Shown piece after piece: positions 25,189-29,838 of a stretch of DNA of 64,000 nucleotides. This DNA is from Humidesulfovibrio sp. (lineage in GTDB: Bacteria; Desulfobacterota; Desulfovibrionia; Desulfovibrionales; Desulfovibrionaceae). The stretch spans positions 1 through 64,000 of the forward strand of contig NZ_JAVHLD010000010.1 of the NCBI RefSeq assembly GCF_031082295.1, given 5' to 3'. Positions within the stretch are counted from its first letter, which is position 1. The number at the start of each line of letters is the position of its first letter. The notes under the pieces are model-generated. The model worked only from the letters and a program-made list of their open reading frames with translations. It was not told where the DNA came from and did no database searches. The position numbers and the translations under genes were made by a program.

Positions 25189-25329
25189 CGCTTCATGCCA
25201 TCCATTTTCCGCCCCCCTCTGTACAAGCCGCCAGGATTCTGTCACATCTGCGCACATCGGCCCCTTGCCGGTCTGCGCTCCTTCGCGCAGCTCCGCTCGC
25301 AAGAGCACGAGCCGAACCAGAGGTCCGCC

Positions 25330-26481
25330 ATGCACTACCTCACCCTGGTGGCCATCGCGAAGGACGAGACGCGAAACCTGCGCGAATGGCTTGTGTACCA
25401 CGCCATCCTGGGCGTCGAAGCCTTCATCATCTACGACAACGAAAGCAGCGTGCCCATACGGGAGACCCTTGCGCCTTATATGCGTGACGTATTCCTCACC
25501 GTTGTGGACATACCGGGCCAGAACATGCAGGCCACCGCGTACGCGCACGCCTTGCGCGATTTCGGCAACACGACGCGATGGATGGGCTTCATCGACCTTG
25601 ATGAATACATCGTGCCGCACGCAACGGACGATCTGCGCCATCTGCTCACGGACTACGAGGACTACGCCGGGCTGGTCATCAACTGGGCCATGTACGGCTC
25701 CGGCGGGCACATGAAACGCCCCCACGGACTGATGATCGAGAACTACACAACGCGGCTGCCCTTGAGCGATTCGCAGAACGTCCATGTGAAGTCCATAGTG
25801 AAGCCGGCCTGCACGCTGCACCCCATGTCGCCCCACAGCTTTGCCTACCGCCAGGGCTGTTTCGCCGTGAACACGGACCGCATGCCCATCGCAGCACCCT
25901 TCAGCCCCGTGTGCCACGACAAGGTGCGCGTCAACCACTACTTCTACCGCTCCCAGGAGGAGTTCCAGGAGAAGATGGCGCGCGGCCGCTCGGACTGCAA
26001 CGCACCAGAATACCAACGCTCCATCGACTGCTTCAACAACCAGCTCCATGCCCCGGCCGAGGAAGACAGATGCGCCACAAAATATCTAGACAAACTCAAG
26101 ACTCTGCTGAAGGGCGATGATCCGGCTGCAGTCATCGCGTACCCGCGCCGGAGCATCGCGCAAGACCAGCCGGGCTACCTCACGGCCTACGTGGACGCGG
26201 CTCGGCGCTGCGACACCGATGGGGCCGAGGTGATCTTGCGCGAAGCCCTTGCGCGTTTCCCGGACGACCCGGTGCTCATCGCCGTGCGGGCGGGCACCCT
26301 GCGCCTGTCGGGCGACCTGCCCCGCGCCCTGGCCGAGGCCAAGCGCTCCTTAAGCATCATCCCCACGGCCCAGGGCCTCACCGAGCTCGCGGCGGTGCAC
26401 CGGGCGCTGGGCGAGCACGCCCTGGCCGAGAAGGTCAAGGATTACCACGATTACCTGGTCCGGTTCGGGCATTTGAACTAG
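25330..26481 (+). CDS. GT92/GT2-like glycosyltransferase
   Basis: 383 residues. The N terminus (LVAIAKDETRNLREWLVYHAILG, in parts) and the FIIYDNES segment are typical of the Glyco_tranf_2_4/GT92 fold, with the metal-binding FIDLDEY (Asp89, Asp91). Later HDKVRVNHYFYRS matches the family's C-terminal region. Residues about 290-383 form a TPR-like helical tail. It probably adds a sugar to a surface glycan; donor and acceptor are unknown. The ATG at 25330 follows AGAGGT; the open frame begins earlier at 25195 without a site. Confidence 0.85.
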   Translation: MHYLTLVAIAKDETRNLREWLVYHAILGVEAFIIYDNESSVPIRETLAPYMRDVFLTVVDIPGQNMQATAYAHALRDFGNTTRWMGFIDLDEYIVPHATDDLRHLLTDYEDYAGLVINWAMYGSGGHMKRPHGLMIENYTTRLPLSDSQNVHVKSIVKPACTLHPMSPHSFAYRQGCFAVNTDRMPIAAPFSPVCHDKVRVNHYFYRSQEEFQEKMARGRSDCNAPEYQRSIDCFNNQLHAPAEEDRCATKYLDKLKTLLKGDDPAAVIAYPRRSIAQDQPGYLTAYVDAARRCDTDGAEVILREALARFPDDPVLIAVRAGTLRLSGDLPRALAEAKRSLSIIPTAQGLTELAAVHRALGEHALAEKVKDYHDYLVRFGHLN

Positions 26482-26561: not shown

Positions 26562-28295
26562 CTAGCAGACCTTGGCGGCCTGCATTTCCTCGGCGGTGAA
26601 GTCCCACACGGTGCCGTGGGGCGGCAGCGGCTCGTTCTTGAAGAAGTCCGGCAGCTGGTCGTCCTTGGCGGTGAAGCCAGCGGCGGTGTTGAAGGCGATC
26701 TCGTCCTTCAGGGTGTTGATGCCCAGGTTCACCACGTCGTCCACGGTGTAGGGCTTGCCGGTGAGGGCCGCCACCAGGTCCGCGATGCAGGGCACGCCGT
26801 CGGCGTTGTCCAGCACGGCGAAGGCCACGAACAGGCACAGGCCCAGGGCGTCCACGGCGGCGGTGGCCACCTGCAGGTTCTTGCTGATCTCGATCTGGCC
26901 GGCCTTGCCCGTGGGGGCCACGTCGCCGCCGACCTTCAGGATGTTCTGGCACACGGCGTAGCCGGCGGTGTGGTCCGCGCCCTGGGTGGTGGTGCAGTAG
27001 GTCACGCCCACGCCCTTCACGCTGCGGGGGTCGTAGGCGGGCAGGGCCTGGTTCTTGACCACGGGCACGCGGTCCACGCCGAAGGCCTGGGCGGCGAAGC
27101 CCGTGCCGTTGCCGATGATGCGGCCCATGGCGTCGGACTTGTCGCCCACCTTGCGGATGAGCTTCTCGGCGGCCTTGCCGTCGCCCCAGGCGATGATGCC
27201 GCCTTCCATGGCCATGGCGATGGTGTTGCCGAGCTCGATGGTATCAAGGCCCATGTCGTCGCAGGCGCGGTCGAGGGCGGCGATGTCGTCCAGGTCCTTG
27301 ATCAGCGTGTTGGCGCCAAACGCCCACACGGTCTCGTACTCGAAGCCGCTGGTCAGGTACTTGCCGGCCTTGTCCACGTACTCCTGGGAGCACTGGATGA
27401 TGCAGCCGGTGTGGCAGCCGTGCTTGACCTTGCCGCCGCGCTTGGTGATGGTCTCGGCGATGGCCTCGCCGGAGATGGCGGCGGCGTGCTCGAAGCGGCC
27501 GTCGCGGAAGTTCTTGGTGGGCAGGGCGCCCGCCTCGTTGATGATGTTCACCAGGATGGCGGTGCCGAAGCCCGGCAGGCCCTGGCTGGTGACCGGGTGG
27601 CCCTTCAGGATCTCGACCCAGCGCTTGCCCGCGGCCTTGAACTTCTCGGCGTCGACGCCGGGGACCATGCTGCAACCGGCGTCGTCCAGAACGATGGCCT
27701 TGACCTTCTTGGAGCCCATGACCGCGCCCAGGCCGCCGCGTCCGGCCGCGCGGGACGGACGGCCCTCGGGGTCGGAGAACTGCACAGAGGCGGCCATGCG
27801 GCAGGTCTCGCCGCCGGGGCCGATGAGCATGGCGCCGATCTTGGACCCGAACTTGGCCAGGATCTTGTCCATGCAGGCGTAGGTGCCAAGGCCTTCCATC
27901 TCGCTGGCGGCCTCGAACTTGACGCCGTCCTTGGTGATGATGATGTTGGTGAAGCCGGCGCCTTCCTCGGGCTTGTCCTCCAGCACGATGGCCAGGATGC
28001 CCAGCTTGGCGAGCTTCTGGGCGAACTGGCCGCCGGAGTTGCTCTCCTTGATGGTGCCGGTGAGGGGCGACTTGGCGCCCAGGGAAATGCGGCCTGAGTT
28101 GGCGACGATGGTGCCGGTCAGGACGCCAGCGGCGGCCACCAGCTTGTTGGCGGCGGAAAGAGCGTGGGCCGTGGCCGGGACTTCGTCCAGCACGATGCGG
28201 GAGGTCAGGGCGCGACCGCCCAGGCCCAGGTATTTGCCCAGTTCCTCGAACTTGAATTCCTTGGTGCGGGTGTTGATGCGCAGTATCTTCGACAT
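26562..28295 (-). CDS. aor: aldehyde:ferredoxin oxidoreductase (tungsten/molybdenum)
   Basis: 577 residues, typical AOR size. The N-terminal domain has the GLGGRALTS and pterin-binding RAAGRGGLGAVMGSKK segments. An iron-sulfur cluster set is visible: Cys294, Cys298 and Cys302 in GCHTGCIIQC plus a distal Cys in ALGLCLF. It oxidises aldehydes to acids, passing electrons to ferredoxin, with a bis-pterin W or Mo. The C-x3-C-x3-C spacing differs from the C-x2-C-x3-C I expect for the archaeal enzyme. ATG 28295 follows AGGAG. Divergent from a CysQ fusion gene. Confidence 0.93.
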   Translation of the reverse strand: MSKILRINTRTKEFKFEELGKYLGLGGRALTSRIVLDEVPATAHALSAANKLVAAAGVLTGTIVANSGRISLGAKSPLTGTIKESNSGGQFAQKLAKLGILAIVLEDKPEEGAGFTNIIITKDGVKFEAASEMEGLGTYACMDKILAKFGSKIGAMLIGPGGETCRMAASVQFSDPEGRPSRAAGRGGLGAVMGSKKVKAIVLDDAGCSMVPGVDAEKFKAAGKRWVEILKGHPVTSQGLPGFGTAILVNIINEAGALPTKNFRDGRFEHAAAISGEAIAETITKRGGKVKHGCHTGCIIQCSQEYVDKAGKYLTSGFEYETVWAFGANTLIKDLDDIAALDRACDDMGLDTIELGNTIAMAMEGGIIAWGDGKAAEKLIRKVGDKSDAMGRIIGNGTGFAAQAFGVDRVPVVKNQALPAYDPRSVKGVGVTYCTTTQGADHTAGYAVCQNILKVGGDVAPTGKAGQIEISKNLQVATAAVDALGLCLFVAFAVLDNADGVPCIADLVAALTGKPYTVDDVVNLGINTLKDEIAFNTAAGFTAKDDQLPDFFKNEPLPPHGTVWDFTAEEMQAAKVC

Positions 28296-28387: not shown

Positions 28388-28403
28388 ACATATTTGGCTG
28401 TTG

Positions 28404-28440
28404 TATCACTCATGACATATATCAATAGTGACATAGTCAC
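28404..28440. promoter_or_regulatory. operator-like repeats between aor and the cysQ fusion
   Basis: TGACATA occurs twice in direct orientation (28413-28419 and 28429-28435), 16 bases apart, and the second copy lies inside a perfect palindrome GTGAC-ATA-GTCAC (28428-28440). The palindrome abuts the Shine-Dalgarno of the plus-strand gene and lies 40-50 bases upstream of the aor -35. A metal- or redox-responsive regulator could bind here; the regulator is unknown. Confidence 0.45.
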
Positions 28441-28449
28441 GGAGGCCCA

Positions 28450-29838
28450 ATGCCCGGAGCACACAACCTCACGGTCACGGCGAGCCGAGAATCTCTGCTG
28501 GCCCTGACCCCCATCCTGCGCGAAGGGGTCGGCATCGGCCTGCGGCCCGGCATCAGCCTGCGTCAGACCATGATCCAGGACCTGGGGTTCTGCCCCACGT
28601 GCGTGGAGGAGCGCGTGCAGACCGTGTTCCTCGACGGCTCGCCCGTGGACGACATCGACGCCGACCACGCGGTGGCGGGCTGCACCCTGGCCCTGGCCGG
28701 AGCCCTGCCAGGCGTGGCGGGCATCGCCATGCGCCGGGGCAGCCCGGTGGGCGTGTTCCGCGAGGGCATCGCCCACGGCATCGCCCACGAAGACGAGGCC
28801 GCCTCGACCGCGCTCCTGCCCGTCACGCTCAAGCTTTTCAACACAGTGGCCATTGAATGCCTGGCGGCAGTGCTCGAGCAGGGAGTGGAACTGCGCGCGG
28901 GCCGACTGGCCGAACTGCTCGCGGCAGACCCCGACGCCCTGGCGACGGCCTCCTTCACGCTCAACGGGCAGGACGTGGACCGCGCCGCGCTCGTCACCGC
29001 GTTGACAGGCCAGGCCGGAACCCTCCGCCTCACCGCCGAGCACGCCGAGACGAACGCCCCGACCCCTGACCTCGCGGTCCTGGCCGACATCGCCGAGACC
29101 GCAGGCCGGGCCATCATGAAGGTGCGCGAGGCCGGCTTCCGGGTGGAGTACAAGGAAGACCACTCGCCGCTGACCCGCGCCGACCTGGCCTCGCACGAGA
29201 CCATCCTGCGCGGCCTGGCGGAGAAATTTCCCGGCGTGCCGGTGCTCTCGGAAGAAGGCGCGGCCATCCCCGCCGAAAAGCGCCAACGCTGGAAGCGCCT
29301 GTTCATCGTGGACCCGCTGGACGGCACCAAGGAGTTCGTGAAGGCTCTGGGCGAGTTCTGCGTGTGCATCGCCCTGGCCGAGGACGGCTACCCGGCGCTG
29401 GGAGCCGTGCATGTGCCCGTGTGGGGCAAGACGTATGTGGGCGGCCTGGGCCTGGGCGCCTTCCTGCGTGAAAACGGCGGCGCCTGGACGCCGATCAGCG
29501 TGCGCCACCCCGACCCGGCGGGCCTCACCGTGCTGGCCAGCCGCTCCCACCCCTCGCCCGAAACCGACCAGTACCTTGCGTCGATAAACGTTCGCGAGCG
29601 GGTCACCGCGGGCAGCGCGCTGAAGTTCTGCCTGGTGGCCGAGGGCAAGGCCGACCTGTACCCGCGCCTGAACACCGGCATGCGCGAATGGGACTCCGCC
29701 GCCGGGCAGGCCGTGCTCGAGGGCGCTGGCGGCAGCGTGCTGGAACTCGTGGACGGGCAGCCCGGCCCGCGCCTGGCCGTGAACAAGCCGGACCTGAAGA
29801 ACCCGGCGTTCATCGCCTCGGCAACGCCGAGAGCGTAG
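28450..29838 (+). CDS. CysQ-type 3'(2'),5'-bisphosphate phosphatase fused to an unknown N-terminal domain
   Basis: 462 residues. Residues about 200-455 form an inositol-monophosphatase-family domain: DPLDGTKEF (Asp288, Asp291) and WDSAAG (Asp415) supply the metal sites, as in CysQ, which hydrolyses PAP to AMP. Residues 1-190 do not belong to this family: they contain a CPTC pair near residue 55, then a FLDGSPVDDIDAD segment that reads like a small beta-grasp region, and a GxxMRRGS turn. ATG 28450 follows GGAGG. Fusion is in one frame without suspicious composition change. Divergence from aor suggests shared control. Confidence 0.82.
   Translation: MPGAHNLTVTASRESLLALTPILREGVGIGLRPGISLRQTMIQDLGFCPTCVEERVQTVFLDGSPVDDIDADHAVAGCTLALAGALPGVAGIAMRRGSPVGVFREGIAHGIAHEDEAASTALLPVTLKLFNTVAIECLAAVLEQGVELRAGRLAELLAADPDALATASFTLNGQDVDRAALVTALTGQAGTLRLTAEHAETNAPTPDLAVLADIAETAGRAIMKVREAGFRVEYKEDHSPLTRADLASHETILRGLAEKFPGVPVLSEEGAAIPAEKRQRWKRLFIVDPLDGTKEFVKALGEFCVCIALAEDGYPALGAVHVPVWGKTYVGGLGLGAFLRENGGAWTPISVRHPDPAGLTVLASRSHPSPETDQYLASINVRERVTAGSALKFCLVAEGKADLYPRLNTGMREWDSAAGQAVLEGAGGSVLELVDGQPGPRLAVNKPDLKNPAFIASATPRA

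Follow-up and report, generated by a model that had tools for sequence, protein, structure and literature searches.

A protein family without a database name accompanies one clade of aldehyde:ferredoxin oxidoreductases and is fused to CysQ in Humidesulfovibrio sp.

Results

A two-domain gene lies divergent from aor

The DNA analysed here (the window) is a stretch of 64,000 nucleotides from Humidesulfovibrio sp., positions 1 to 64,000 of contig NZ_JAVHLD010000010.1. It contains an aldehyde:ferredoxin oxidoreductase (AOR) gene and a gene that joins an N-terminal domain, here called X, to a CysQ-type phosphatase. The two form a divergent pair, as the original prediction had stated:

26562-28295, minus strand: aor, aldehyde:ferredoxin oxidoreductase of the X-accompanying clade, 577 aa (Pfam, quick tree)
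28450-29838, plus strand: fused gene, X domain and CysQ, 462 aa, ATG start (ORF call, translation)
28450-29046, plus strand: N-terminal AOR-partner domain X, residues 1-199 (homologue searches in relatives)
29074-29820, plus strand: CysQ-type 3'(2'),5'-bisphosphate nucleotidase domain, residues 209-457 (Pfam, NCBIfam)

Pfam assigns AFOR_N (E 3.2e-58) and AFOR_C (E 4.3e-80) to the aor product. Convergent with aor, at 25195-26478, lies the gene of a protein resembling glycosyltransferase family 92, with weak TPR-like Pfam matches near its C-terminus. In the fused protein, Inositol_P matches residues 209-457 (Pfam, E 4.9e-48), and the CysQ model TIGR01331 of NCBIfam scores 241.8 bits with the full protein and 244.3 bits with the C-terminal domain alone, the curated cut-off being 228.8. 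The translation of this half reads DPLDGTKEF and EWDSAAG, and thus holds DPLDGT and WDxAAG, the metal motifs of inositol phosphatases.

The N-terminal part had been predicted to lie outside the inositol-phosphatase family, and residues 1-203 indeed match no Pfam or NCBIfam family at E values up to 1, Inositol_P beginning at residue 209. A PDB sequence search with this part returned two chance-level rows only (E 0.24 and 0.67), and further PDB sequence searches on X gave nothing beyond such rows. Judged by sequence, X is a domain in its own right, unnamed and with its own family. Searched alone, it matches in 83 of 149 relatives, the window's genome included, with 88 copies, among which a split gene in G005 is counted twice. 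X is separate from cysQ in 24 of the 29 flank loci (L002-L030), where it forms proteins of about 190-214 residues with the start codons chosen in our analysis. Within the phylum, a profile of 28 members found X in at least 42 of 297 genomes, three of them weak partial matches, and in at least 36 of 198 genera; both are lower bounds, the best 10 candidates per genome having been scored. Plasmid searches with two family members gave no match. In the portions of text that our literature search returned, we recognised no paper describing an X protein, and a search on DVU1178/DVU1179 turned up DVU1179 alone.

Residues G26, D67, P87, G88, G91, R104 and G145 are invariant in 48 aligned members, and cysteine is absent from the invariant or nearly invariant positions of both this and the 28-member alignment. 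The CPTC pair pointed out by the original prediction is present in the window's protein, but it does not hold as a functional site: CPxC occurs in 5 of the 48 members, all from the window's genus (6 of 28 in the smaller alignment), and we ruled it out on that ground.

X accompanies one AOR clade

An AOR of the window's clade lies within 1 kb of 68 of the 88 X copies in the 149 genomes (median gap 193.5 bp); 38 of these pairs are divergent, 27 read AOR then X and 3 read X then AOR. The N-terminal part thus co-occurs with aor, the point on which the original prediction had left itself open to refutation. Counted by genome, 76 carry both X and a clade AOR, 7 carry X only, 34 carry the AOR only and 32 carry neither (Fisher odds ratio 10.2, p 4e-8, with kinship ignored). 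Clade AORs were called at a limit of E 1e-80, by which truncated AORs are lost, and above an identity line of about 50%, set by eye, which dropped 13 weaker rows. Two of the seven X-bearing genomes without a clade AOR at this limit (G100, G145) have a truncated AOR beside X. Among the 20 unlinked X copies, three (G100, G145, G148) adjoin a truncated AOR and some others lie at contig ends. The 34 genomes with a clade AOR and no detected X imply that X is not strictly required or was missed there; 7 of the 10 such genomes examined have, by eye, a GG-ended ThiS/MoaD gene directly after the AOR, at a distance of up to about 150 bp, which likewise indicates that X is not indispensable.

By tblastn, an AOR adjoins X in 27 of the 29 loci L002-L030, both misses being contig ends, and in 23 of the 28 phylum-search loci (L037-L064, of which L039 and L045 belong to the window's own family). 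Four of the five unlinked phylum-search genomes (G216, G307, G332, G439) carry a same-clade AOR elsewhere. In a quick tree of 62 AORs, where some long branches may be misplaced, all 20 X-linked AORs fall in one clade of 27 rows (support 100, stem 1.08), with seven rows that are not X-linked, and 35 AORs lie outside it. X-linked AORs are 51-93% identical to the window's AOR, those outside the clade 23-35%. The linked state requires four changes within the clade on this quick tree, which suggests that linkage between X and AOR was gained or lost repeatedly. By gene neighbourhood, the partner of this AOR is the N-terminal protein X rather than CysQ.

MoaD-like and ThiF-type genes occur near X at some loci

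Two of the 20 fetched loci (L095 and L099, from distant genomes) show the order AOR, X, a MoaD-like gene with a GGG end and a ThiF-type enzyme gene; other fetched loci have partial versions of it, and in L108 and L109 the MoaD and ThiF genes come after an AOR that has a divergent X. With the window included, a MoaD-like cluster is found in 7 of 21 loci and a ThiF-like one in 6 of 21, as counted by mechanical and rough gene calling that contains false ORFs and misses. The neighbours of X in L095 match Pfam ThiS (E 6e-14) and ThiF (E 4e-51), and this separate ThiS protein beside X indicates that X and MoaD are different components. Another distant genome has three AOR genes around one X (L096:6705-13300), of which only the AOR directly upstream of X is of the X-linked clade.

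CysQ adjoins X in the genus and seldom beyond it

All 13 loci from the window's genus have cysQ after X. With flanks of about 1.5 kb, the same order appears in 3 of the 17 other loci from the family and order (L014, L015 and L022, from two other genera), and none of the 28 phylum-search loci has cysQ beside X; contig ends cut some of the loci. A search for the same neighbours in relatives had been suggested as a check; AOR is such a neighbour at most of the loci described above, cysQ across the genus and seldom outside it. The proposed link of aldehyde or tungsten-pterin metabolism to by-products of sulfate activation is not supported by these counts, and it is in the tie to PAP that the original proposal is weakest.

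X and CysQ share one reading frame in 6 of the 13 genus loci (the window's own, G012, G002, G003, G005 and G008). In the unfused genus loci, as in L014 and L015, X and cysQ overlap by 4 bases when cysQ is read from a candidate start; in L012 the overlap is 7 bases. The fused and separate states require two changes on the tree, most simply two fusions, and fusion would be explained most simply by a small insertion or deletion that put two overlapping genes into one frame. Three proteins of the window's genome match the wider phosphatase family and the fused protein alone scores as CysQ; since it is the only CysQ-type enzyme found there, a housekeeping role suffices, and the CysQ domain most likely still removes PAP.

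Profiles liken the first half of X to MoaD

Profile comparison divides X into two related halves, with these stretches in the window:

28525-28707, plus strand: MoaD-like stretch, residues about 26-86, with the invariant PGxxG next to it at residues 87-91 (profile alignment)
28867-28980, plus strand: second-half stretch, residues about 140-177, aligning with the first half (profile comparison)

Aligned by hhalign with a MoaD-like family from the same relatives, X scored 40.5 (90.5% probability, 54 columns, residues about 26-86), and with a ThiS-like family profile 28.2. Column permutations, 150 for each family, reached at most 23.2 (MoaD-like) and 18.3 (ThiS-like), the reversed families 12.9 and 11.7, and 17 slices of the AOR and CysQ alignments at most 17.6. 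The two halves of X matched each other with a score of 29.6, against at most 15.1 in 100 column permutations. The second half alone gave no match to the MoaD and ThiS families (14.1 and 14.4). None of the 28 members matched Pfam ThiS (PF02597) at E values up to 10, within HMMER's filters.

A beta-grasp-like stretch had been suspected from the translation, and the MoaD-like profile match speaks for it; structure prediction gave it no backing, with poor AlphaFold models (pLDDT 53.2 for X alone and 56.5 with five close relatives, two of them partial) and, for the six-sequence model with pLDDT 56.5, chance matches only and none at E 0.001 in Foldseek. The beta-grasp character of X is thus suggested by profiles. 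No member among the 48 ends in GG, one having GG within the last four residues, so X cannot be a normal sulfur carrier without cleavage. Given the internal PGxxG and the missing GG end, we do not claim that X belongs to the MoaD family.

An inverted repeat in the aor-X region recurs before molybdenum and tungsten genes

Three elements were considered in the region between aor and the fused gene:

28402-28419, no strand: operator-like inverted repeat, a degenerate TATGTCA-N4-TGACATA with 2 mismatches (pattern search, genus alignment)
28418-28435, no strand: second operator-like repeat, TATATCA-atag-TGACATA, 1 mismatch, sharing 2 bp with the first (pattern search)
28428-28440, no strand: palindrome GTGAC-ATA-GTCAC, not conserved (motif search)

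The original prediction had singled out the palindrome. It is present, and its arms, set 3 bases apart, are seen once in the 64 kb, but it is not conserved: any GTGAC-N0-6-GTCAC is found in 1 of 13 relatives' intergenic regions (L012), which ruled it out as an operator. Inverted repeats with 5-bp arms and free spacing are expected by chance about once per 154 bp, by a rough estimate. The two TGACATA copies, at 28413 and 28429, fared better, as they are the right halves of an inverted repeat conserved in the genus.

The aor-X intergenic region is conserved across the genus, with TTATGTCA-N4-TGACATAA as its best element, which is perfect in L014 and L015. In 12 of 27 divergent regions (nine from the genus, plus L014, L015 and L022) the repeat scores above every one of 100 base-shuffles, a descriptive comparison, the motif having been chosen from the very regions scored; among the 27, clear copies are confined to the window's genus and two others. 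Across eight genomes, TATGTCA-N4-TGACATA with up to 2 mismatches has 2-9 sites per genome, versus 0-1 for the reversed pattern. Of the other sites found, we examined the surroundings of some, 12 regions in all. The repeat lies directly upstream of a MoeA-PBP gene in the window's genome, G013 and G002, of the gene for tungstate-binding WtpA (wtpA) in G009, of a formate dehydrogenase in G006 (about 0.7 kb upstream of one in G073), and of genes for molybdopterin-binding-domain proteins in G006 and G012. It also precedes small unknown ORFs, one in G009 and one in G002 that has an aldehyde dehydrogenase gene after it, and genes without evident link to molybdenum or tungsten (G042, contig C18; G006, contig C5). 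Since the repeat of the common region recurs before molybdenum and tungsten genes, shared expression of aor and the fusion is plausible, and the two are probably read from a shared divergent promoter under a regulator of such genes. Joint regulation of aor with a PAP phosphatase, as first proposed, keeps its plausibility in this form but not through the palindrome.

Presumably TaoR and TunR are candidate regulators of the repeat. PBP_like, HTH_17 and TOBE searches of the window's genome gave no clear TaoR among the hits examined; they found a MoeA-PBP fusion, solute-binding-like and LysR-like proteins (by eye) and an integrase-like protein with two TOBE matches. The fusion joins MoeA to a PBP_like domain (L179:5584-7620, contig C7) and has an operator-like site at its start. 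The integrase-like protein, so called by eye (L198:1264-2670, contig C19), resembles the description of TunR. Separately, small ORFs in three relatives (L180:11089-11283, L187:4331-4549, L188:4562-4762) have a common FCGLG motif and no NCBIfam match, and sit directly downstream of a TATGTCA-N4-TGACATA-like site.

Discussion

Cofactor supply to AOR-family tungsten enzymes is poorly known. With moderate confidence, we propose that X is a dedicated factor for maturation or delivery of the tungsten-pterin cofactor of one AOR clade, co-expressed with aor and, in the window, fused to CysQ. X, with two related halves of which the first is MoaD-like, would help to mature the cofactor or deliver it to these AORs, and would work with the MoaD-like carrier and the ThiF-type enzyme that some genomes encode nearby. 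Two neighbouring genes, overlapping in relatives, would have been joined into the fusion; its CysQ part would keep its function in PAP removal, and a divergent promoter common to aor and the fusion would answer to a molybdenum/tungsten regulator. Counted against a maturation role are the 34 genomes with a clade AOR and no detected X, the seven with X and no clade AOR at the limit used, the second half without a MoaD/ThiS match, the poor AlphaFold models and the missing GG end. So is a chlorate screen in D. vulgaris, a species that may lack X: the excerpts of that report name 12 genes, for tungstate uptake, cofactor and aor, and describe none of them as X (PMC10102598). Shared regulation is weakened by the few genera in which the repeat is clear and by its several sites before genes that show no evident tie to molybdenum or tungsten.

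There is an appreciable minority chance that X is instead a structural or electron-transfer-docking subunit of these AORs, a reading that linkage to one clade fits equally well. The lack of invariant or nearly invariant cysteines suggests no bound cluster, the MoaD-like similarity and the MoaD and ThiF neighbours at some loci point to cofactor work, and the 34 X-less genomes weigh against a subunit as well. That X is a diverged sulfur carrier of the MoaD/WorX kind, whose C-terminus would be freed by cleavage behind an internal glycine, is improbable: the invariant PGxxG follows directly on the MoaD-aligned stretch and 20 of the 48 members have GG a few residues later, but GG is missing there in 28, the window's included, and 7 of 21 loci have a true MoaD-like gene with a GG end in the neighbourhood. 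We see only a slim chance that the fusion ties PAP removal to aldehyde or tungsten metabolism; the gene order kept in the genus, the two changes between fused and separate states, and cysQ after X in two other genera (L014, L015, L022) with the same repeat at their aor promoters would fit such coupling, against which stand the 14 of 17 family and order loci and 28 of 28 phylum-search loci where cysQ was not found beside X, and the fact that no other CysQ-type enzyme was found in the genome. Very improbable, finally, is a bifunctional maturation enzyme whose MoaD-like part would dock on apo-AOR or MoaD-MoaE and whose phosphatase would act on the pterin, not PAP, with a phosphorylated or nucleotide-bearing pterin intermediate as substrate, so that tungsten-pterin would be inserted without the nucleotide.

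As a putative maturation factor, X matters as a protein that goes with one AOR clade across many of the phylum's genomes and had no match in the copies of Pfam and NCBIfam searched. It offers a concrete deletion target, with AOR activity, tungsten content and chlorate sensitivity as read-outs, and the inverted repeat suggests a testable tungsten/molybdenum regulon in the genus.

Parts of the locus have known counterparts. The C-terminal part of the fusion scores above the cut-off of CysQ (TIGR01331) and differs from it by an extra 200-residue N-terminal domain and its place beside aor. Regulation by TaoR and TunR in Desulfovibrio likewise concerns the aor promoter and tungstate transport in sulfate reducers; mentions of it occur in PMC11980592 and a citation in PMC10102598. 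A dedicated tungsten maturation path has been described for a formate dehydrogenase (PMC13197769). An AOR-linked MoaD (PMC1779556) and WorX with ThiF (PMC13328260) were already known, and the authors of these papers and of that on Aromatoleum (PMC6365974) think that such MoaD/ThiS-like AOR partners have a role in making the pterin cofactor. Like WorX, AorD/AorE and the AOR-linked MoaD, X lies beside AOR, sometimes with a ThiF/MoeB-type enzyme, and has a MoaD-like profile. Unlike them, it has about 200 residues in two related halves, no GG end, no usable tail and no Pfam ThiS match, and a separate GG-ended MoaD-like gene lies near it in 7 of 21 loci. With WorX in particular it shares adjacency to AOR (68 of 88 copies) and not the ThiS-like protein itself, X having no ThiS match. 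The nearest analogue for X as a maturation factor is AorD/AorE of Aromatoleum, which are MoaD-like and absent from the purified enzyme (PMC6365974).
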